Source: Natrinema salifodinae
Lineage (GTDB): Archaea; Halobacteriota; Halobacteria; Halobacteriales; Natrialbaceae
Direction of reading: 5' to 3'
Length of the DNA stretch: 64,000 bases
Assembly (NCBI RefSeq): GCF_900110455.1
Contig: NZ_FOIS01000002.1
Span: 806,001-870,000, forward strand
Both the position numbers and the translations under genes were made by a program. Positions 34,406 to 49,577 of this stretch are shown one piece after another (position 1 is the stretch's first letter; each line of letters begins with the position of its first letter). Under the pieces are notes generated by a model. That model made no database searches and was not told the origin of the DNA. It saw only the letters and a list, made by a program, of their open reading frames with translations.

Positions 34406-36589
34406 TCAGTCGTCGCCCGCGGGATCGGCCGGCTCGCCGAGCGGTTCGACGTCGACGTCGATCTCCGCGGCGGCGGCCTTGTACTCGGGAATCTTCGCCC
34501 GCTCGTCGAGTACGTGGTTCGTGAGCTTGTTCGCCGAGGCGGCGGCGAAGTGCGGCGTCGTCCAGACTACGCCCTCCTTGGTGTCCTCGGTGACGTGGGC
34601 CTCGAGCGTGATCTCGCCGCGGCGGGAACTGAGCCGGACGTACTCGCCGTCCTCGATGCCGTACCGGTCGGCGTCTGCGGGGTGGACGTCGACGAAGTTC
34701 TCCGGGGTCTGGCGGTTGAGCGTCGACGACCTGGTGCTCATCGTCCCGGTGTTGTAGTGTTCCTCGAGTCGCGCCGTCGTGAGGATCAGCGGGTACTCCT
34801 CGTCCGGCGTCTCCGCCGGGGGCTGGTGCTCGACGCCCTCGATGTGCCCGAGCCCGCTCTCGGTGTCGAACTCCTCGGCGTAGAGGTACGGATCGCCCTC
34901 GTCGCCGGGCTCGTAGCAGGGCCAGTGTAGGCCCCCCTTGCCGAGGCGGTCGTAGGTCATCCCGTGGTAGATAGGACAGACCTGGCGAAGTTCCTCGAAG
35001 ACCGCTTCGGGATCGTCGAAGTCGAACCCACCGCCGGACCCCGTCCGGCTCTCCGAGGAACCTCGGTCCTCGCTCTCGTCAAAGAGACGCGTCCCGACCT
35101 CGCTCAGAATTTCGAGGTCGTGCTTGGTGTTCTCGTGGACTTTCCCGACGCCGCGCATCCGCTGGACGCGGCGGTCGGTGTTGGTGACGGTGCCGCCGCG
35201 CTCGGCCCAGGTCGTCGCCGGCAGGATCACGTCGGCGTACTCCGCGGTCTCGGTGGGGAAGATGTCCTGGACGACCACGAACTCGAGATCCTTGAGCCGC
35301 TCGGCGACGCTGTTGGCGTCGGGCTCGCTCATCACGGGATTCTCGCCCATGACGTACAGCCCCTTGATCGAGTCGCCGGCCTCGTAGGAGATCTCGACGT
35401 TCGTGAGCCCCGGCTCGTCGGGGACCTCGAAGCCCCAGACCTCCTCGACGGACTCGCGAGCCTCGTCGTCGTCGACGAGCTGGTAGCCGGGGAGTACGTT
35501 CGGCATCGCGCCGACGTCGCTGGTCCCCTGGACGTTGTTCTGGCCGCGCAGCGGGTTGACGCCGGTGCCGGGCCGGCCGAGGTTGCCCGTGATCAGCGCC
35601 AGGTTGATCTCGTTTTGCACGTTGTCGACGCCGCAGGCGTGCTGGCTCATCCCCATTCCGGTGAAGATGGCCGCGTTGTCGGCCGTGGCGTACTTCTCCG
35701 CGGCCAGTTCGATGTCCTCGAGCGGGACGCCGCACTCCTCGGCCGCGGCCTCCTTGTCGAAGCCCTCGAGGGTCTCTACGAGGTCCGCGAACCCCTCAGT
35801 GCGCTCTTCGATGAACGCCTCGTCGATCCAGCCCTCGTCGGGGTTTTCCTCGTGTTTCTCGAGGATCGTCTTGAGGACGATGTTCAGCAGCGGGATGTCC
35901 GTCCCCGGATTCAGCTGGAGGTGCATGTGGCGGTCGCTGTCGTCGATCCCGAACGACCGCGTCGTCTTGTTCGCGTGCGGGTCGACCTGGATGACCGTCG
36001 CGCCGTCCAGCACCGCCTGGCGGAAGTACTGGCTGTTGGCGATCGGGTGTTGCTCGCCCGGGTTCGCCCCCTGAATCCAGAAGACGTCGGCCTCCTCGCG
36101 GAGGTCGCGCATGCTGTTGGTCATCGCGCCCGCGCCGAGGCTGGTCCGCAGCGCCCAGACCGTCGAGGCGTGGCACATCCGCGTGCAGTTGTCGACGTTG
36201 TTGGTGCCGTAGCGCCTGGCGAGCTTCTGGAGGAGGTAGTTCTCCTCGTTCATCGTCTTCGAGGAGCCGAAAAAGCCCATCGCGTCCGGGCCGTACTCCT
36301 CGCGGATGCGCTCGAGTTCGTCGACGACGTACTCGAAGCACTCCTCCCAGGTGGCCTCGCGGAACTCGCCGTCCTCCTTTAGCAGCGGGTCGGTGAGCCG
36401 ATCCTCGTGGTCGATCACCTCCGTCGCCGCGCCGCCCTTGATACAGACGCGCCCCTCGTTGACCGGCGCGTCGCCCCACGGCATAAATCGGACGTCGCTC
36501 GGTTCCTCGCCCTGTTGGATCTGGATGCCGCACCCGACCCCGCAGTACGGACAGATCGTCTTGACTGGATCTTGCTGATCACTCGACAT
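34406..36589 (-). CDS. fdhA: molybdopterin formate dehydrogenase alpha subunit
   Basis: A 727-aa DMSO-reductase-family enzyme that oxidises formate to CO2 using bis-MGD. The N-terminal [4Fe-4S] site is C-P-Y-C-G-V-G-C (Cys 13, 16, 20) plus Cys about 49. The catalytic ligand is probably Cys about 139 in T-R-M-C-H-A-S-T. W-I-Q-G-A-N-P-G and R-G-Q-N-N-V-Q-G-T-S-D-V-G fit FdhF-type enzymes, and the C-terminal cofactor-binding beta-barrel follows. There is no Tat signal, so it is cytosolic. No beta or gamma subunit lies nearby, so the acceptor is unknown. Codons near residue 510 include a paired-hairpin insert (35033-35066). mobA is 0.8 kb away on the other strand. Confidence 0.88.
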   Translation of the reverse strand: MSSDQQDPVKTICPYCGVGCGIQIQQGEEPSDVRFMPWGDAPVNEGRVCIKGGAATEVIDHEDRLTDPLLKEDGEFREATWEECFEYVVDELERIREEYGPDAMGFFGSSKTMNEENYLLQKLARRYGTNNVDNCTRMCHASTVWALRTSLGAGAMTNSMRDLREEADVFWIQGANPGEQHPIANSQYFRQAVLDGATVIQVDPHANKTTRSFGIDDSDRHMHLQLNPGTDIPLLNIVLKTILEKHEENPDEGWIDEAFIEERTEGFADLVETLEGFDKEAAAEECGVPLEDIELAAEKYATADNAAIFTGMGMSQHACGVDNVQNEINLALITGNLGRPGTGVNPLRGQNNVQGTSDVGAMPNVLPGYQLVDDDEARESVEEVWGFEVPDEPGLTNVEISYEAGDSIKGLYVMGENPVMSEPDANSVAERLKDLEFVVVQDIFPTETAEYADVILPATTWAERGGTVTNTDRRVQRMRGVGKVHENTKHDLEILSEVGTRLFDESEDRGSSESRTGSGGGFDFDDPEAVFEELRQVCPIYHGMTYDRLGKGGLHWPCYEPGDEGDPYLYAEEFDTESGLGHIEGVEHQPPAETPDEEYPLILTTARLEEHYNTGTMSTRSSTLNRQTPENFVDVHPADADRYGIEDGEYVRLSSRRGEITLEAHVTEDTKEGVVWTTPHFAAASANKLTNHVLDERAKIPEYKAAAAEIDVDVEPLGEPADPAGDD
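35033..35066. repeat. paired perfect hairpins inside the formate dehydrogenase gene
   Basis: The first hairpin has arms GCCGGAC and GTCCGGC with a CCC loop (35033-35049). Three bases later the second has arms CCGAGG and CCTCGG with an AA loop (35053-35066). On the coding strand the region reads R-G-S-S-E-S-R-T-G-S-G-G, a small-residue linker. The same two-hairpin architecture is found in the aldehyde oxidoreductase gene at 48348-48386. Confidence 0.75.
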
Positions 36590-40516: not shown

Positions 40517-41683
40517 TTACGGTTCGAGCAAGACTTTGATGACGCCTTCTTCGCGCTCGTCGAACTTCTCGTACATCTCCGGCGCCTGCTCGAGGTCGAC
40601 GCGGTGGGAGACGACCCAGCTGGGGTCGGCGCGCCCCTCGATGATCATGTCTCGCAGCTCCCGATTGTACTGCTTGACGTTCGTCTGGCCGGTACCCAGC
40701 TTCAGTCCCTTCTCGAAGGCCTTGCCGAAGTCGATCCCGAGTCGGCCCTGGGCCGCCATCTCGTCGGGAGCGCCGGGGTCCGACGGGACGTACAGTCCCG
40801 GAATGCCGAGATTGCCGGTCGGACGGATGGTCTGGATGAGCTGGTTGAGTACGATCGCGGGGTTTTCTCGGGCCGGATCGTAGGCGTCGTCGGTCGGATC
40901 GGTCTCGGGGTCGATCGCTTGATACCCGACGGCGTCGACGCCCGCGTCCACGCCGCCGCCGTGGGCGTCTTTGATCTGTTCGACGGGATCGCTCTCCTCG
41001 AAGTTGATCGGGCGGGCGTCGCAGTGGTCTTCGGCCAACTCGAGGCGACTCTCGACGCGGTCGACGACGTAGATCTCCGATGCGCCCTGGATCTTGGCGC
41101 TGTAGGCGGCCATCAGGCCGACGGGGCCGGCCCCGAAGATCGCGATCGATTCGCCCGGATCCAGGTTCGCGAGTCGGGTACCGTGCCATCCCGTCGGGAA
41201 GATGTCCGCGAGGAGCGCGAAGGCGTCCTCGTGTTCGTCGCCCTCCGGCAGTTTCAGCGCGTTGAAGTCGGCGTACGGCACCCGAAGTTTCTCGGCCTGG
41301 CCACCTTTGTACGGCCCCATCGCGACGTACCCGTACGCGCCGCCGGCGAAGCCGGGATTGACGTTGGTGCAGAAACCGGTGTAGCCGTTCTCACAGTTCC
41401 GACAGAACCCGCAGGCCACGTTGAACGGCATTACGACGCGGTCGCCCTCTTCGAGCGTCGTGACGGCGTCGCCGACCTCGCTCACGATTCCCTGGTTTTC
41501 GTGACCGAAGACGATCCCCGGATCGGCCGAGGTTCGCCCCTCGTACATGTGGAGATCCGAGCCACAGATGCACGTCGTCGTGATGTCGACGATAACGTCG
41601 TTCTCGTGTTCGATCTCAGGTTCATCGACCTCTTCGACGGCGACATCGTGCGGTCCCTGATATACGACGGCGTTCATTGACAT
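40517..41683 (-). CDS. zinc-dependent alcohol dehydrogenase, formaldehyde-dehydrogenase (FdhA) type
   Basis: A 388-aa medium-chain dehydrogenase. The catalytic zinc site is formed by C-I-C-G-S-D-L-H and F-G-H-E, and the structural zinc site by C-G-F-C-R-N-C ... G-F-C. The NAD fold is I-F-G-A-G-P-V-G-L-M-A. The longer insert near residues 225-300 and T-G-W-H-G-T-R-L are typical of the glutathione-independent formaldehyde dehydrogenase group, which oxidises aldehydes with tightly bound NAD. Start placed at M-S-M-N-A-V-V-Y. It is divergent from a GlcG/HbpS gene and 0.7 kb from the quinoprotein operon, so it could handle the aldehyde formed there. Confidence 0.85.
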   Translation of the reverse strand: MSMNAVVYQGPHDVAVEEVDEPEIEHENDVIVDITTTCICGSDLHMYEGRTSADPGIVFGHENQGIVSEVGDAVTTLEEGDRVVMPFNVACGFCRNCENGYTGFCTNVNPGFAGGAYGYVAMGPYKGGQAEKLRVPYADFNALKLPEGDEHEDAFALLADIFPTGWHGTRLANLDPGESIAIFGAGPVGLMAAYSAKIQGASEIYVVDRVESRLELAEDHCDARPINFEESDPVEQIKDAHGGGVDAGVDAVGYQAIDPETDPTDDAYDPARENPAIVLNQLIQTIRPTGNLGIPGLYVPSDPGAPDEMAAQGRLGIDFGKAFEKGLKLGTGQTNVKQYNRELRDMIIEGRADPSWVVSHRVDLEQAPEMYEKFDEREEGVIKVLLEP

Positions 41684-41842
41684 TTGGTATCGACCCTCAG
41701 TGAACCGTCCACAGACGCCGTTGTAAATGTTCGTGTGACTGCCGCCGTTCATCAACGCTCGTGTGACTGGAGAGTACCGCCGCTTGATGACTCCAAAATA
41801 TACTCACATCAATCGAATATATTATGTTTTTTACAATGGATA

Positions 41843-41875: not shown

Positions 41876-42295
41876 ATGGTTGATACAGTGAGTCTCGACA
41901 CGGCGAAGGAAATCATCGACGCGGCAGAGCAACGGGCGGCGGAGATCGACAATCCCATGGTGATCACGGTCGCGAATTCCGAGGGGAACCTTATCGCCCA
42001 ACACCGGATGGACGGCGCGTGGCTCGCGTCGGTCGATATTTCGCGAAACAAAGCCTACACGGCGGCCGCCCTGGACATGCCGACGCACGACCTGGCCGAT
42101 CCGACCCGACCGGGCGAATCGCTGTACGGCTTGCAGAACACCAACCAGGGACGGATGGTCATTTTCGGCGGCGGCTACCCGTTGATGCGAGACGGCGACG
42201 TCGTCGGGGCGATCGGCGTCAGCGGGGGCGCGGTCGAGCAGGACATGGACGTCGCGGAGTCGGGCGTCGACAAATTCGACGAACTCTCCGCGTAA
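41876..42295 (+). CDS. GlcG/HbpS-family protein (DUF336)
   Basis: A 139-aa protein of the GlcG/HbpS fold. T-A-K-E-I-I-D-A-A-E-Q-R-A near residue 8, V-I-T-V-A-N-S-E-G-N-L-I-A near 28, S-R-N-K-A-Y-T-A-A-A near 55, and G-G-G-Y-P-L-M-R-D-G-D-V-V-G-A-I-G-V-S-G-G near 98 are the family's hallmarks. Members bind haem or corrinoids, or are found in glycolate, diol and alcohol oxidation operons, including beside quinoprotein dehydrogenases. The ATG at 41876 fits the TATA spacing. Confidence 0.88.
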   Translation: MVDTVSLDTAKEIIDAAEQRAAEIDNPMVITVANSEGNLIAQHRMDGAWLASVDISRNKAYTAAALDMPTHDLADPTRPGESLYGLQNTNQGRMVIFGGGYPLMRDGDVVGAIGVSGGAVEQDMDVAESGVDKFDELSA

Positions 42296-42431: not shown

Positions 42432-43892
42432 TCAGTCGCCGTTCGTTTCGTTGCCCTCCGCCTCGGCGGTCTCGTTACCGTCCCCGGTCTCGTTTCCGTC
42501 CATGTCTGCGGTCTCGTTACCGCCCATCCCGTCACCGCCCCGTTCGATCTCCTCTTGCTGGATCTCGCCCGTCGCTTCGGTTTCGCCTTGAACGGTGATC
42601 TCGCCGACCGCATCGAGTTGCGACTGATCGAGGTAGACGCCCATATCCTCTTGGGCGACGAATTCGACGGTCTGGGTCTCGCCCTCCTCGCTGGTGAAGT
42701 TCGACCGGACGTACGTGCTCCACTCGTTGGTGTCGCCGCCGCTGGCGATCACGAAGTTGTGGCCGGGCAGCGGTTCGAAGGTCATGTTTTCCGCTTCGGG
42801 CTGGTGACGACCGAGCGCGTTCTCCCACTCGACCGCGTACGTCTCGCCCGCCTCGAGTTCGAGCGGCGGGTTCTCCTCGTCGGCGATATCATCGGGTTCG
42901 ACGCCGACCCACTGGCCCTCCTCGAGCGCGAACGAGTAGGTCTCGGTCGGGTCACCCGTTTCGATCGCCGGGACCGTGACCGTGACCTCCTGACCGTCGC
43001 CGTCGACCGACACCGTGTCGGTGACCCGTTCGTGGCCGTAGGTCCAGACTTCGAGGTTGTACTCGCCGTCCTGGAGCATATCGAACCGGGCGACCGCCGG
43101 CGCGTCCTCCTCGGCCGGCGTCTCTTCCTCTTGGGCGCCGCCCATGTCCGATTCGTTTCCGGCCGTTTCGTTTCCGGCCGTTTCGTTTCCGGCCGTTTCG
43201 TTTCCGGCCGTTTCGTTCCCTCCCGTCTCGTTCCCGCCCGTCTCGTTTCCGCCTTCGTCGTCGCCTGGCTCCCGTTGGGACTGTTCCTCCTCCGGCGGGG
43301 CGGGTCGCGCGGCGATATCGGAGAACGCGTGGTACTCCTCGGAGGGGGTCCTGAGGAACACCTCGGCCTCGAGGGGGTTCCCCTCCTCGTCTTCGACCTG
43401 AACCCGGAGTTCCCGGACCTCGTCCGGACTGACCAGTTCGACCGGGCCGCGCATCTGGACCGGGTGCGGCATGCAGTAGTACTCCGCCACTCCCTCTTCG
43501 GGAGTGAACGTGAGCGAGGTGGATTCGCCTTGCTCCTCGACGAAGTCCGTCGCTTCGACCACCTCGCCGTTCTCGTCCTCGAGGACGAAGTTGTGCCGCG
43601 AACCGTCGCCGTTCGTCCAGACGACTTCGTTTTCTTCGCCTTCGATCAGTCGCAGCGTCGGGTTGGAGGCGCCGTCGATTTCCGCCGGCGCGACGCCTTG
43701 CCAGCCACCGACGAGACCCACTAACGAGAGCGTCCGTCCCTCTCCGTCGTTCTGCGTAGCCGGAAGCCGGAAATCGATCTCGTCGCGGTAGGCGCCAGCG
43801 GTGCCGGCCATCGCAGCCGTGCCGGCGATCGCCGCCCCCTTCAGTACCCCGCGACGGGAAACGTCTTCGCGTGATTGCTTTTCGTTTGACAT
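42432..43892 (-). CDS. Tat-exported two-domain cupredoxin
   Basis: A 486-aa exported electron-transfer candidate. The Tat signal is S-R-R-G-V-L-K-G-A-A-I-A. Cupredoxin domain one (about 50-155) has a full type-1 copper site: His 100 (S-R-H-N-F), Cys 140, His 143 and Met 147 (Y-Y-C-M-P-H-P-V-Q-M). A linker of seven G-G/A-G-N-E-T pentads (about 213-248) follows. Domain two (about 315-435) repeats the fold and keeps a G-H-N-F motif but lacks the Cys/His/Met ligands. The C-terminal tail again is N-E-T-rich. It is the last gene of the quinoprotein operon, 25 bp after the dehydrogenase, and is its likely electron acceptor. Confidence 0.88.
   Translation of the reverse strand: MSNEKQSREDVSRRGVLKGAAIAGTAAMAGTAGAYRDEIDFRLPATQNDGEGRTLSLVGLVGGWQGVAPAEIDGASNPTLRLIEGEENEVVWTNGDGSRHNFVLEDENGEVVEATDFVEEQGESTSLTFTPEEGVAEYYCMPHPVQMRGPVELVSPDEVRELRVQVEDEEGNPLEAEVFLRTPSEEYHAFSDIAARPAPPEEEQSQREPGDDEGGNETGGNETGGNETAGNETAGNETAGNETAGNESDMGGAQEEETPAEEDAPAVARFDMLQDGEYNLEVWTYGHERVTDTVSVDGDGQEVTVTVPAIETGDPTETYSFALEEGQWVGVEPDDIADEENPPLELEAGETYAVEWENALGRHQPEAENMTFEPLPGHNFVIASGGDTNEWSTYVRSNFTSEEGETQTVEFVAQEDMGVYLDQSQLDAVGEITVQGETEATGEIQQEEIERGGDGMGGNETADMDGNETGDGNETAEAEGNETNGD
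43152..43253. repeat. seven 15-bp tandem units encoding the cupredoxin linker
   Basis: Units of ttcgtttccggccgt repeat at 43152, 43167, 43182 and 43197 without change, then three diverged units follow. Each gives one N-E-T or N-E-S sequon on the minus strand, so the linker is likely glycosylated. Recent expansion is implied by the identical copies. Confidence 0.9.
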
Positions 43893-43917
43893 AGTTGTGT
43901 GAGTGCTATCGTGGTGT

Positions 43918-45627
43918 TCAGGCGTCCATCGAGAACACGGCGAGCGTGTCGCCGCGATCTCCCTGACGGAGCCAACCGCTGCCGCCGACCTGGACGGCGA
44001 CGTACTGTTTCTCCTCGCCGGGGTCGTACCAGCTCATCGGCGAGGCGCTGATCGGCACGTCGAACTCGTACTCCCAGAGGCGGTCGCCGCTCTCGCCGTC
44101 GTAGGCGACGAGGACACCGTTCTGGGTCCCGTTGAACACGAGTCCCGTCGCGGTCGACATCGAGCCGCCCCACATGTAGTACTCGTCTTCGCTCTCGATC
44201 CAGTCGCGCCAGACGCGCTCGCCCGTCGCCGGATCGACCGCCGCGAAGGCGGTGATCGAGTCGTTCCACTCGTCGGGGAACTCCTCGGCCGGATCGGCCA
44301 GGCCGCCGCCCCAGTAGGGATTACCCTCGCTGTACTCCTCGTACCGCCAGTAGAGGTCCTGCGGGTAGTTCTGGTGGACGACGTACACGTACCCGGTCTC
44401 GGGGTTGTACGACGGTGGCTGCCAGTCGTTGCCGCCAGGCGCGCCGGGGACGAACGGGACGCGTTCGTCCTCGCTGATGTGGGGAATCATCTCCCACATA
44501 TTGATGTGTTGGCAGATCTCCTCGCTGCGTTCGTGGAGTTGGCCGGACTCGGCGTCCATCATGTACACCCAGCCGGTCTTGTCGGACCCGACGACCATCT
44601 CCGACGGCCCGTCGTCGACGTCTACGTCGCGCAACAGCACTCGCGGCGCGACCGCGTCGTAGTCCCAGACGTCGTGCGGACTGCTCTGGAAGCCCCACTG
44701 GAACTCGCCGCTCTCCAAGTCCAGCGAGATGGTCCCACAGGTGGGGAAGTTCGGTCCCGGCCGGACCGTCCCGTCGAAGTCCGGTCCGGGATTCGCGACC
44801 GCCGTGTAAAGGACGTCCCGCTCCTCGTCGATCGTCGGCGTCATCCAGGTCGTGCCGCAGCCGTGCTCGCGGCTCTGGCCGATCCACTCGTCTTCCGGGA
44901 GCGTATCGTTCTGCCAGAGCATGTCGCCGCTCTCCGCGTCGAGCGCGGCGACGAATCCGAGGACGCCGTACTCGCCGCCGGCGCTGCCCGTGTAGATCGT
45001 CCCGTCGTAGATCACTGGGGCCCACGTCGCGGAGTACCCGACTTCGTGTTCGCCGGTACTCGTGTACCACTCCTCTTCGCCGGTGTAACGGTCCAAGGCG
45101 ACGACGCCCGAGTCGAGCGTCGTCATGTAGACCTTGTCGCCGTAGACGGCGGCGCCGCGGTTGTTGTCGTCGCAGCACAGCTCGACGCCCATCGGAACCG
45201 CGTAGGTGTAGCTCCAGAGGACCTCCCCCTCGCGGGGGTCGATCGCCTTCATGTGGTTCGGGCCGTTCGTCTGGTACATGACCGGGGGATCGCCCGGAAC
45301 GACGATCGGCGTCCCCTCCATGCTCGAACCCGTCCCGACCGACAGCTCGTACTCGAGTTCGAGATCGTCGACGTTGTCGGGCGTGATAGCGTCGGCGGTC
45401 GTGACTCGATGTTGCTCGTAGTTCCCGCCGTACATCAACCACGACCGGGGATTCTCCCCGGTATTACTCAGCATCTCCTGGTCGACGTCCTGCTCAGGAA
45501 TGCGCTCGGGATCGTGCTGCTCGGTGATCGATTCCTCGGGGCCCCCGACCAGCGTATAGCCGTCCTCGATCTCTCTCAGTTCGATGTCTCGGGCGGCTTG
45601 TACCGCCTTATCGTTGCGAAGTGCCAT
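43918..45627 (-). CDS. PQQ-dependent quinoprotein alcohol dehydrogenase, DYD (lanthanide-type) motif
   Basis: A 569-aa eight-bladed propeller protein of the methanol/alcohol dehydrogenase family. The vicinal cysteines over PQQ are C151-C152 in E-L-C-C-D-D-N-N-R-G. Active-site counterparts are Glu 219 (G-G-E-Y-G-V), Trp 261, Asn 279 (A-N-P-G-P-D) and catalytic Asp 322 in H-D-V-W-D-Y-D-A. Asp 324, two residues on, is the extra lanthanide ligand known from XoxF-type enzymes; calcium-type MxaF has Ala there. Lys 350 replaces the usual Arg. Repeated W-motifs (G-E-V-L-W-S, G-E-E-E-W-Y, G-D-M-L-W-Q, G-E-F-Q-W-G, G-D-R-L-W-E) mark the blades. Unusually no signal peptide is visible. It starts 6 bp after the unknown 309-aa gene. 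Confidence 0.88.
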   Translation of the reverse strand: MALRNDKAVQAARDIELREIEDGYTLVGGPEESITEQHDPERIPEQDVDQEMLSNTGENPRSWLMYGGNYEQHRVTTADAITPDNVDDLELEYELSVGTGSSMEGTPIVVPGDPPVMYQTNGPNHMKAIDPREGEVLWSYTYAVPMGVELCCDDNNRGAAVYGDKVYMTTLDSGVVALDRYTGEEEWYTSTGEHEVGYSATWAPVIYDGTIYTGSAGGEYGVLGFVAALDAESGDMLWQNDTLPEDEWIGQSREHGCGTTWMTPTIDEERDVLYTAVANPGPDFDGTVRPGPNFPTCGTISLDLESGEFQWGFQSSPHDVWDYDAVAPRVLLRDVDVDDGPSEMVVGSDKTGWVYMMDAESGQLHERSEEICQHINMWEMIPHISEDERVPFVPGAPGGNDWQPPSYNPETGYVYVVHQNYPQDLYWRYEEYSEGNPYWGGGLADPAEEFPDEWNDSITAFAAVDPATGERVWRDWIESEDEYYMWGGSMSTATGLVFNGTQNGVLVAYDGESGDRLWEYEFDVPISASPMSWYDPGEEKQYVAVQVGGSGWLRQGDRGDTLAVFSMDA

Positions 45628-45633
45628 TTAAAA

Positions 45634-46563
45634 TCACCTCAGTTCGCTCGGCGCGCGTTTCTCGTCCGTGATGTAGAACACGTCGTGCAACAGCTCTTCC
45701 TGGCTGATGATCTGGACGGCCGCGCCAGCGGTGAACGCGGCTGTCAGCTGTTCGTCCGTGAACCGGTCTTCGCCCTCGCCCCCGCCGGCGAGATCGCAGG
45801 CGGCGGTCGCCGAGACGAACAGCCCGCCCAGCATCGCCTTCACGTACCTGGCCGCGTCGTCGAGGATGTCGTCGGTGACGAGCACCTCGTTCTGCCAGAG
45901 GTGCCTGTCCAGCCCGTTGATCCACAGCAGGACGCCGCCCATCGCGCGCTGATGAAGCGGCGGCACGTTTTCGGTGTCGAACTCGACCCCGTCGGGGATC
46001 TGGTTCGAGGGGACCCAGCGCGCGAGTCGCTCGTCGTTGTTCGCGACCGCCGTTAGAATCGCCGTCTTCTCCGATTCGTCGAACCCGACATCGTCGAGCG
46101 CCGCCGACAGCGGCTCGGTCAGGACCAGTTCGCGCGTCGTGTGCTCGATGTGGTCCGCCGTGAACCGCGGCAGGTTCTCGTCTACACTCTCGAAGAAGCC
46201 GACATCGAGCAAGTGGTCGTAGAGGTGCCAGCCCGGTGCCGCTACCTCAGTATACAGTCCCTCAGGTACGTCGGGGACGCCGACATCGCGGACGGCCGAC
46301 AAGCGTTGGATCTCGTCCGCAACGTTCTCGCGCTCCCGTTCGATCAGTTCGCGGTCGAGTTGCGCCCCGAGATCGGCTCGGATTGCTTCCCCGCAGGAGG
46401 CCAGCGCCGAGTCGGTCTGCGATTCGACCTTCCCTGCGAGCGAGTCCCACGTGAGAGGACCGTCCCCCGGTACATCGACTCCGAGTCTCGTCGTCAGGTC
46501 ACGCCGGTCCGCAACCGTCGTTCGTGACGCAGTGCGTATTTGTTTCATGCTACCACTGCACAC
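45634..46563 (-). CDS. unknown helical protein, first gene of the quinoprotein operon
   Basis: A 309-aa (or 304-aa from the ATG at 46548) acidic helix-rich protein of no family I recognise. Features are R-L-G-V-D-V-P-G-D-G-P-L-T-W near residue 27, P-G-W-H-L-Y-D-H-L near 110, H-I-E-H-T-T-R-E-L near 138, L-L-W-I-N-G-L-D-R-H-L-W-Q-N-E near 219, a hydrophobic helix A-M-L-G-G-L-F-V-S-A-T-A-A-C near 253, and Q-E-E-L-L-H-D-V-F near 290. No signal peptide or clear membrane span. Its stop is part of the ribosome-binding site of the dehydrogenase, so the two are coupled. A chaperone, export partner or accessory subunit is possible; nothing proves it. Confidence 0.7.
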   Translation of the reverse strand: MCSGSMKQIRTASRTTVADRRDLTTRLGVDVPGDGPLTWDSLAGKVESQTDSALASCGEAIRADLGAQLDRELIERERENVADEIQRLSAVRDVGVPDVPEGLYTEVAAPGWHLYDHLLDVGFFESVDENLPRFTADHIEHTTRELVLTEPLSAALDDVGFDESEKTAILTAVANNDERLARWVPSNQIPDGVEFDTENVPPLHQRAMGGVLLWINGLDRHLWQNEVLVTDDILDDAARYVKAMLGGLFVSATAACDLAGGGEGEDRFTDEQLTAAFTAGAAVQIISQEELLHDVFYITDEKRAPSELR

Positions 46564-47594: not shown

Positions 47595-49577
47595 TCAGTC
47601 GTCGCTCGGTGCCGCGGCACCGCCCTCGCCCGTGCTGACGCCGGTACCGGGGCCGATCTCGATTCCAAGGTCGTCGAGTTTCTCGTCGGGGACGACGCCG
47701 TCGACCCAGCCGCGGTAGTCGTAGTACTCCTCTTTCATCCGCTCGAGCTCGCAGTACTCGCCCTCGGAGGCGCCCTGGCCGGGGATACCGTCCGCGAGGA
47801 AGCGGTCCGGCAGCGAGTCGTCGGTCCCGTCGAACCCGGCGAGGTTGTTGTAGTAGCGCTCCAAGTTGTAGACCCGTTCGCCGGCCTCGAGGAGGTCGTC
47901 CTCGGTGACGTCGCGGCCGGTCATCCCGTTGTACTGGGTGACGTACTCCTCGATGCCCTCAGCGAAGGCGTTGAACTTGCAGATGTCGAAGCTGTCGGAG
48001 ATGGCGTGCAGATCCTGGAACTGGGCGGTGAGCTCGCCCTTGCCCTCCCACTCGTAGGGGTCGACCTTCTCGGGAATGCCCAGAATCTCGGCGGCGGGCG
48101 TGTACCCGCGCAGGTGGCAGGCCCCGCGGTTTGAGGTGGCGTAGCCGATCCCCATGCCCTTCATGCAGCGGGGGTCGTAGGCCGGAATCGTCTGGCCCTT
48201 GACCGCCAGGGAGTTCTCGCGGGCGTCTCGCATCTCCGCGATCCGGTCGGCGCCCTCGGCCAGGAGGTCCGCCAGGTCGTCCTCGCGGTGAGCGATCCGC
48301 TCGATCATGTCGACCATCTCCTCGGAGTCGCCCCAGTCGAGGCCAGCGTGGGACTCTGTCCCACGAGCAGACGGGCTTTGCCCGTCGACATCGTTGAGGT
48401 CGTCGAGTTTGCCCTCCTCGGTCATCTCCATGGCCATCGCCATCATGTTGCCCACTTCGATGGTGTCGACGCCCATGTCGTTACAGCGGTCGATCATCAG
48501 GGCGATGTCGTCGCGGTCGGTGTGGCCGGAGTTCGGGCCGAGCGCGAACGCCGACTCGTACTCGTAGGACTCCGTCCGGACGTTCATCTCCTCGCCCTTG
48601 TGCATCGCCTGAACTTCGACCTCCTTCTTACAGGCGACCGGACAGGAGTGACACGTGGGTTCGTCGACGAGGATGTTCTCGCGGACGTTCTCGCCGGAGA
48701 CCTGCTCGGAGTCGAACTCGTCGCCGGCCCAGCCGTCGTCGCGGGCGTCCCCGGTCGAGGTGTACTTCCCGTTGCGCGTCGGGAGCCCGGACATCTCCTC
48801 GGTGAGGTTCATCAGGACGTTCGTCCCGAACTTCGAGAGCCCGCCCTCGTTGGGCGCGGTGACCTCCGACTCTTGGATGGCCTGCATCGCCTGCTGGTGA
48901 CCCTCCCGGAACGTCTCCGAATCGGCCGGTTTGGGCATCCGCGTGTTCGACTTGACGACGACCGCCTTGAGGTTCTTCGAGCCGGCGACGCAGCCGGTGC
49001 CGCCCCGACCCGAGGCGCGGTCGTCCTCGTTCATGATCGTGGCGTAGCGAACCTGATTCTCGCCACCGGGACCGATCCCCATGATGCTCAGGTTCTTGCC
49101 GTAGGAGCCCTCGACCTCCTCTTCGATCGCGTCGCGGGTTTCGTGGAAGCCCATCCCCCAGAGGTGCGAGGCGTCCCGAAGTTCGACCTCGCCGTCCTCG
49201 ACGACGGCGTAGACCGGTTCGTCCGCCTGGCCCTCGAAGAGTAGGCCGTCGAAGCCGGCCCACTTGAGTCGGGCGCCCGACCAGCCGCCCTGGTGGCTGT
49301 CGGTGACGGTGCCGGTCAGCGGCGATCTCGTACAGACGGCGATCCGGCCGCTCATGGTCACTTGGGTGCCCGACAGCGGGCCGTTCATGAACGCGAGCAG
49401 GTTGTCGGGTCCGAGCGGATCAACGTCCGGTCCCTGTTCGAAGACGTACTTTACCCCCAAGCCGCGCGCACCGATATACTTCTTCGCGTCCTCGTCGTCG
49501 ATCGACTCGTACGCGACCTCCCCGTCCGAGAGATCGATGCGAGCGACCCTATCTTGGAATCCACCGAGTTCGGTCAT
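47595..49577 (-). CDS. aor: aldehyde:ferredoxin oxidoreductase (tungsten AOR family)
   Basis: A 660-aa AOR-family enzyme that oxidises aldehydes to acids with ferredoxin, using tungsten bis-pterin. N-terminal G-A-R-G-L-G-V-K-Y and N-G-P-L-S-G-T bind cofactor. The [4Fe-4S] ligands are Cys 309, 312 and 316 in P-T-C-H-S-C-P-V-A-C and probably Cys 533. G-R-G-G-T-G-C-V-A-G-S-K-N-L-K-A near 190 and M-K-G-M-G-I-G-Y-A-T-S-N-R-G near 472 are family signatures. An odd linker (G-Q-S-P-S-A-R-G-T-E-S-H) near 400-410 is encoded by a paired-hairpin insert. Upstream lies a perfect inverted repeat. It could remove aldehydes made by the neighbouring dehydrogenases. Confidence 0.92.
   Translation of the reverse strand: MTELGGFQDRVARIDLSDGEVAYESIDDEDAKKYIGARGLGVKYVFEQGPDVDPLGPDNLLAFMNGPLSGTQVTMSGRIAVCTRSPLTGTVTDSHQGGWSGARLKWAGFDGLLFEGQADEPVYAVVEDGEVELRDASHLWGMGFHETRDAIEEEVEGSYGKNLSIMGIGPGGENQVRYATIMNEDDRASGRGGTGCVAGSKNLKAVVVKSNTRMPKPADSETFREGHQQAMQAIQESEVTAPNEGGLSKFGTNVLMNLTEEMSGLPTRNGKYTSTGDARDDGWAGDEFDSEQVSGENVRENILVDEPTCHSCPVACKKEVEVQAMHKGEEMNVRTESYEYESAFALGPNSGHTDRDDIALMIDRCNDMGVDTIEVGNMMAMAMEMTEEGKLDDLNDVDGQSPSARGTESHAGLDWGDSEEMVDMIERIAHREDDLADLLAEGADRIAEMRDARENSLAVKGQTIPAYDPRCMKGMGIGYATSNRGACHLRGYTPAAEILGIPEKVDPYEWEGKGELTAQFQDLHAISDSFDICKFNAFAEGIEEYVTQYNGMTGRDVTEDDLLEAGERVYNLERYYNNLAGFDGTDDSLPDRFLADGIPGQGASEGEYCELERMKEEYYDYRGWVDGVVPDEKLDDLGIEIGPGTGVSTGEGGAAAPSDD
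48348..48386. repeat. paired perfect hairpins inside the aor gene
   Basis: Hairpin one has arms GTGGGAC and GTCCCAC with a TCT loop (48348-48364). Hairpin two has arms GACGGGC and GCCCGTC with a TTT loop (48370-48386). Five bases separate them. The insert keeps the aor frame open and encodes a Ser/Gly/Ala-rich loop between two conserved helices. This looks like a small palindromic mobile element that has been tolerated in a coding region. Confidence 0.8.

Follow-up and report, generated by a model that had tools for sequence, protein, structure and literature searches.

We found that in haloarchaea a protein without an assigned family, here called P309, is obligately paired with a quinoprotein dehydrogenase that carries the metal-site residues of lanthanide-type enzymes. 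The two proteins have a shared history, a Tat signal is present on P309 in some clades and absent in others, and a cupredoxin gene is linked to the pair in four lineages, among them that of the locus described here, which lies in a stretch of 64,000 nucleotides from Natrinema salifodinae (the window). We propose that these genes encode a two-subunit quinoprotein dehydrogenase with a copper electron carrier, in which the dehydrogenase was ancestrally exported as a hitchhiker on P309, and we give this explanation as a whole an even chance.

Organization of the locus

The three genes are found on the minus strand of the window in the order P309, dehydrogenase, cupredoxin, separated by 6 and 25 bp:

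45634..46563, minus strand: P309, all-helical partner protein (open reading frame; 309 aa from GTG 46563 or 304 aa from ATG 46548)
45634..45640, minus strand: ribosome-binding site for the dehydrogenase gene, which the stop codon of P309 overlaps (sequence)
43918..45627, minus strand: PQQ methanol/ethanol-type dehydrogenase, 569 aa, without signal peptide (Pfam, NCBIfam and PDB comparison)
42432..43892, minus strand: cupredoxin with Tat signal, 486 aa (Pfam and sequence)

The GTG start of P309 at 46563 is preceded by a GGAG about 10 bases upstream, the ATG at 46548 being the alternative start. A sequence-only reading of the window had pointed to three tightly spaced genes and to an overlap between the first stop codon and the ribosome-binding site of the dehydrogenase. 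Both observations held: the open reading frames are real, and the TGA of P309 sits within the AGGTGA ribosome-binding site of the next gene (CTGAGGTGATTTTAAATG). The arrangement is not a matter of chance, because all 70 of the 391 genomes that have one of the two, P309 or the dehydrogenase, also have the other, and spacing and conservation suggest that the three genes share one transcript.

Pairing of P309 with the dehydrogenase

Two independent profile searches of the 391 haloarchaeal genomes each gave 70 positive genomes, and the set was identical for P309 and the dehydrogenase. P309 was located directly upstream of a dehydrogenase and on the same strand for 104 of its 109 matches (modal gap 9 bp), and each of the 105 dehydrogenase matches was preceded by P309. 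Four P309-like genes were unpaired at the profile threshold (G240 C3:224684, C2:246376 and C1:739969; G190 C1:232704); some of these adjoin very divergent propellers and were paired by a looser search. Among plasmid records, P309 was found in eight, all haloarchaeal and all with a dehydrogenase (8/8), and in no bacterial plasmid, while relatives of the dehydrogenase occur in 566 records. The pairwise identity matrices of the two proteins were strongly correlated (r = 0.904, 95 pairs). Given the co-occurrence in the same genomes, the upstream position, the pairing on plasmids and this correlation, P309 is almost certainly a functional partner of the dehydrogenase. The sequence-only reading had suggested a search for the genes in other haloarchaea, and both the pair (70/391 genomes) and the trio indeed recur there.

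The same reading could not place the first gene in a familiar family, and neither could we: the window P309 has no Pfam family and no relative in a PDB sequence search, and NCBIfam offers none for P309 apart from a Tat signal model in deep relatives. Neither the window P309 nor any of 10 deep relatives matched PF13618 (gluconate 2-dehydrogenase subunit 3) at E <= 1, and the fold of that family was not among the PDB structure matches listed for the P309 model. The structure prediction of P309 alone, likewise suggested earlier, gave a confident, all-helical AlphaFold model (pLDDT 87.7) without a match among known structures: Foldseek returned nothing at E <= 0.001, and no solved structure rose above noise (VIA Z < 8, which is within noise for helical bundles). 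Many polar residues are invariant in the P309 alignment. Outside the haloarchaea P309 was found in none of 392 genomes from the phylum (window's order left out).

Family and predicted metal site of the dehydrogenase

The dehydrogenase contains a PQQ propeller (PF01011, E 1.8e-52 in Pfam) and is homologous to eight-bladed propeller enzymes, its PDB relatives being PedH (6zcv, E 9.5e-66) and XoxF (6dam, E 1.3e-61), both of the lanthanide type. It scored 368.7 bits against the curated NCBIfam model TIGR03075, below the cut-off of 480.05, and is therefore a distant member of the PQQ methanol/ethanol dehydrogenases. The 'empty-quinoprotein' model TIGR04528 also matched, far under its own cut-off. 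The residues expected around cofactor and metal are the following:

45172..45177, minus strand: vicinal cysteines C151-C152, position of the disulfide ring beside PQQ (alignment)
44971..44973, minus strand: metal ligand E219 (alignment)
44791..44793, minus strand: metal ligand N279 (alignment)
44656..44664, minus strand: D322-Y-D324, catalytic Asp and extra lanthanide-marker Asp in the motif WDYD (alignment; position as in PMC5487730)

In exported PQQ dehydrogenases the vicinal cysteine pair forms a disulfide; here it was kept in all dehydrogenases of clade C, to which the window enzyme belongs (clades are described below). The extra Asp distinguishes the lanthanide enzyme PedH from the calcium enzyme PedE (PMC5487730), and D324 was present in 95 of 95 dehydrogenase representatives. 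In the same alignment D322, R157 and K350 were essentially invariant, and conservation of R157, W261, N279, D322, D324 and K350 extends to all or almost all clades. E219 was kept throughout clades B and C, but most members of the deep clade A lack it. In the latter (L130-L142) a Tat-bearing deep P309 is found beside a divergent propeller that usually has another residue in place of the metal Glu (D in 8/13), and this propeller may therefore differ in function from the others. From residues and homology, binding of a lanthanide and PQQ and an alcohol as substrate are predicted.

The enzyme thus resembles XoxF and PedH in its propeller, its Glu/Asn/Asp metal ligands, the extra Asp and the vicinal cysteines, but differs from them in lacking a signal peptide, in its obligate P309, in the absence of detected PQQ synthesis genes and in having a cupredoxin or a ferredoxin as neighbour instead of a cytochrome c.

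Distribution of Tat signals

A tree of 95 dehydrogenases separated a deep clade A, clades B1 and B2, and a clade C consisting of C0, C1 (the clade of the window) and C2. None of 123 dehydrogenases carries a Tat signal as judged by pattern, and that of the window has neither a signal peptide nor a hydrophobic N-terminus. P309 has a Tat signal in all 37 representatives of A, B1 and C0 (for example DRREFLKALGVGGAVAAG) and in none of the 58 of B2, C1 and C2; when 10 deep P309 proteins were scanned with the Tat model TIGR01409, 7 scored above its cut-off. The window P309 has no export signal and no hydrophobic N-terminus, and the stretch that matches the signal, DRRDLTTRLGVDVPGDG, is without a hydrophobic core:

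46459..46506, minus strand: decayed counterpart of the Tat signal, P309 residues 20-35 (RRDLTTRLGVDVPGDG; deep relatives RREFLKALGVGGAVAAG) (comparison with deep P309 proteins)

The signal has been lost at least twice, also in the clade of the window, and the simplest history has it present in the ancestor and lost once before the split of C1 and C2 and once in B2.

In A, B1 and C0 the partner has a signal and the catalytic subunit has none; in the window this does not apply, the cupredoxin being the sole signal-bearing protein of the three. The layout of those clades is known from PaoABC and hydrogenase 2 of Escherichia coli, in which the catalytic subunit is without a signal and a partner has the Tat signal; in PaoABC one of three subunits bears it (PMC4273604). 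By analogy, P309 would escort the dehydrogenase through the Tat system, although the proteins are unrelated to the E. coli ones and the signal of the haloarchaeal escort was lost in some lineages. The most likely role of P309 is that of a structural subunit which, ancestrally, also served as the Tat escort.

The linked cupredoxin

The third gene encodes a protein with a plastocyanin-type copper domain (PF00127, E 5.1e-11 in Pfam), organized as follows:

43791..43865, minus strand: Tat signal (SRRGVLKGAAIAGTAAMAGTAGA) (sequence)
43428..43736, minus strand: cupredoxin domain 1, with a complete set of type-1 copper ligands H100, C140, H143 and M147 (Pfam and alignment)
43149..43253, minus strand: NET-repeat linker with 7 tandem N-glycosylation sequons (sequence)
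42585..42944, minus strand: second cupredoxin domain, degenerate, copper Cys and His lost (sequence)

The four ligands of domain 1 were invariant in 12 cupredoxins, and Cys and His are absent from domain 2. A twin cupredoxin, as the protein had been called, is therefore a fair description of its ancestry and not of its copper content. This twin-domain structure rests on sequence, since the structure model was too poor to use (pLDDT 53.5). With its Tat signal and 13 sequons, 7 of them in tandem in the linker, the cupredoxin is very likely extracellular. Like halocyanins and plastocyanin-type cupredoxins it matches PF00127 and has all copper ligands in domain 1; it is distinguished from these proteins by the second domain without copper ligands, the sequon-rich linker and, in B1, fusion to a glucose/sorbosone dehydrogenase domain.

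A homologous Tat cupredoxin was found near the pair in 21/24 C1, 9/9 C0, 16/21 B1 and 5/6 B2 loci (51/60), and in 0/33 C2 and 1/13 A loci. As the loci in these neighbour counts are not phylogenetically independent, Fisher values computed from them serve for description only. Two of the three misses in C1 are gene-calling artefacts, as tblastn recovered the cupredoxin in L002 and L006. In the lineages that lack the Tat signal on P309 and have the cupredoxin (C1 and 5/6 B2 loci) its gene follows the pair on the same strand, in C1 with a gap of 24-43 bp in nearly all loci. In B1 it is convergent to the pair, and L109:1630-3942 and B1 relatives encode a Tat-exported protein that joins the cupredoxin to a glucose/sorbosone dehydrogenase domain (PF07995). 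Two types of quinoprotein may share one cupredoxin in B1.

The sequence-only reading had assumed that a copper protein takes the place of cytochrome c. This agrees with the cupredoxin found at 51 of the 60 loci that represent four lineages and with the recurrent neighbours, which include no haem protein (as seen without a dedicated c-type cytochrome motif search). It does not extend to a general rule, because the sister clade C2 has the pair, no cupredoxin (0/33) and a ferredoxin instead. The electron chain to the cupredoxin needs qualification as well: only domain 1 can bind copper, and in the absence of an export signal on P309 and the dehydrogenase of the window's clade a direct chain to an exported cupredoxin is not straightforward.

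Genomic surroundings

The trio of the window is flanked by genes for an aldehyde:ferredoxin oxidoreductase (47595-49577, minus strand), a formaldehyde-dehydrogenase-like zinc enzyme (40517-41755, minus strand) and an HbpS/GlcG-like protein (41876-42295, plus strand), all of which recur in related loci. A UbiE-like methyltransferase gene lies just upstream of P309 (46773-47549, minus strand); its relatives accompany the pair in 22/33 C2 and 9/24 C1 loci. The window also encodes a formate dehydrogenase alpha subunit (34406-36589, minus strand; TIGR01591, 723.6 bits, above cut-off). Relatives of formate dehydrogenase occur in the neighbourhood of the pair in 11/24 C1 and 8/9 C0 loci and those of formaldehyde dehydrogenase in 13/24 C1 loci. 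A pathway from alcohol via aldehyde to acid, perhaps for C1 compounds, is plausible from these gene contents.

Possible export of the complex or residence in the cytoplasm

In the mechanism that we propose, P309 would bind the dehydrogenase as an obligate structural subunit. The ancestral P309 would have borne the Tat signal, so that the folded, signal-less dehydrogenase could be exported riding on it. Once outside the cell, the reduced cofactor would hand its electrons to domain 1 of the Tat-exported cupredoxin, from which they would reach the respiratory chain. The signal of P309 has decayed in the clade of the window, leaving that of the cupredoxin as the last one in the operon. The three proteins would then most likely leave the cell as one complex on this signal, a cytoplasmic dehydrogenase being nearly as likely.

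The latter alternative holds that in C1 and C2 the pair now resides in the cytoplasm, the cupredoxin (where present) being exported separately without direct electron uptake and the acceptor in C2 being cytosolic, for instance a 2Fe-2S ferredoxin. We regard it as a tentative but real possibility. Within about 9 kb of the pair, C2 loci encode a 2Fe-2S ferredoxin in 29/33 cases and a CDC48-like ATPase in 30/33, with no cupredoxin; ferredoxin and ATPase are both absent near the pair in other clades. One such C2-type pair is the second P309-dehydrogenase pair of the window genome (L153, contig C5, 101962-104583). The C2 cluster is also present on plasmids, such as that of Halomarina sp. BND7 (L183), and its companions, including those in L183, comprise NMT1-type ABC transporter genes, an amphi-Trp protein, a winged-helix regulator and sodium:calcium antiporters, the transporters being candidates for cofactor or metal uptake.

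Cysteine contents point in the same direction as the missing signals and hydrophobic N-termini. P309 has no cysteine in 37/37 Tat-bearing proteins and at least one in 46/58 Tat-less ones, and the dehydrogenases of Tat-less clades have on average 2.7-3.9 extra free cysteines, versus 1.1-1.8 in the others. This gain after loss of the Tat signal suggests residence in the cytoplasm, most clearly in C2 and more weakly in C1. The recurrence of the cytoplasmic-type aldehyde:ferredoxin oxidoreductase and of formaldehyde- and formate-dehydrogenase relatives close by would also fit. However, C1 retains its closely spaced cupredoxin, and the vicinal cysteines are kept in all members of C1 and C2. The extra cysteines at 257 and 297, fixed in C1 dehydrogenases, might pair as a disulfide. 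With respect to the acceptor in C2, PQQ (near +0.1 V) would be a poor reductant for a ferredoxin (near -0.35 V), and the C2 ferredoxin may serve the neighbouring aldehyde:ferredoxin oxidoreductase. That a lanthanide-type quinoprotein moved from surface to cytoplasm in C2 after its partner lost the Tat signal, exchanging a cupredoxin for a cytosolic ferredoxin as acceptor and working without home-made PQQ, we consider rather doubtful. For the window, the retained cupredoxin and vicinal cysteines fit joint export of the trio on the Tat signal of the cupredoxin, which we put slightly ahead of a cytoplasmic pair.

Possible supply of PQQ

The PQQ synthesis proteins PqqC and PqqE reached the cut-off in none of the 391 haloarchaea, whereas both were found in the positive control pSymB (428 and 610 bits). 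Three options follow: import of PQQ, its synthesis by a different route, or an enzyme that does without it. The last option, a propeller that is an 'empty' quinoprotein or holds another cofactor, is in line with the missing enzymes, the low TIGR03075 score and the match to TIGR04528, itself far under cut-off, but is unlikely in view of the metal ligands and most PQQ-contact positions being kept in clades B and C. Imported PQQ, moreover, serves many bacteria that lack its synthesis (PMC12124388). Still less probable is that P309 is a factor for loading or assembly of the cofactor (PQQ, a PQQ substitute or metal) with a Tat signal for its own export only: the 1:1 pairing, the all-helical fold with many invariant polar residues and the lack of PqqC and PqqE would suit such a role, but it leaves the dehydrogenase without an export route in the Tat-bearing clades, and P309 shows no likeness in sequence or fold to a known cofactor enzyme (PDB, Foldseek).

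Relation to known systems and implications

An archaeal chain with a copper acceptor, which the sequence-only reading had taken to be possibly undescribed, is not new in itself. For heterotrophic marine Thaumarchaeota, PQQ dehydrogenases, some with the DYD motif, have been reported and copper proteins proposed as their acceptors (PMC7300363). The thaumarchaeal enzymes differ in lacking the Cys-Cys pair, in having signal peptides (15/21) and in the presence of PQQ synthase in the genomes, and the passages on them mention no P309-like partner. The literature searched, which excluded most subscription journals, contained no description of a PQQ or lanthanide dehydrogenase from haloarchaea. As far as this literature goes, what is new is the obligate P309 family, the shifting Tat signal and the clade with a ferredoxin for a cupredoxin, together with the predicted lanthanide-type quinoproteins across haloarchaea that lack PQQ synthesis enzymes.

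To our knowledge, all characterised PQQ alcohol dehydrogenases are active outside the cytoplasm, and the bacterial ones use cytochrome c. The haloarchaeal enzymes form a distinct archaeal lineage with a dedicated P309 subunit, lanthanide-type ligands and varied electron partners and export signals, which suggests a new way to export and wire a PQQ-type alcohol dehydrogenase. As haloarchaea can be cultured, they make testable the use of lanthanides by archaea, the source of PQQ or its substitute, and the way in which a redox complex evolves once its export signal is relocated or disappears.
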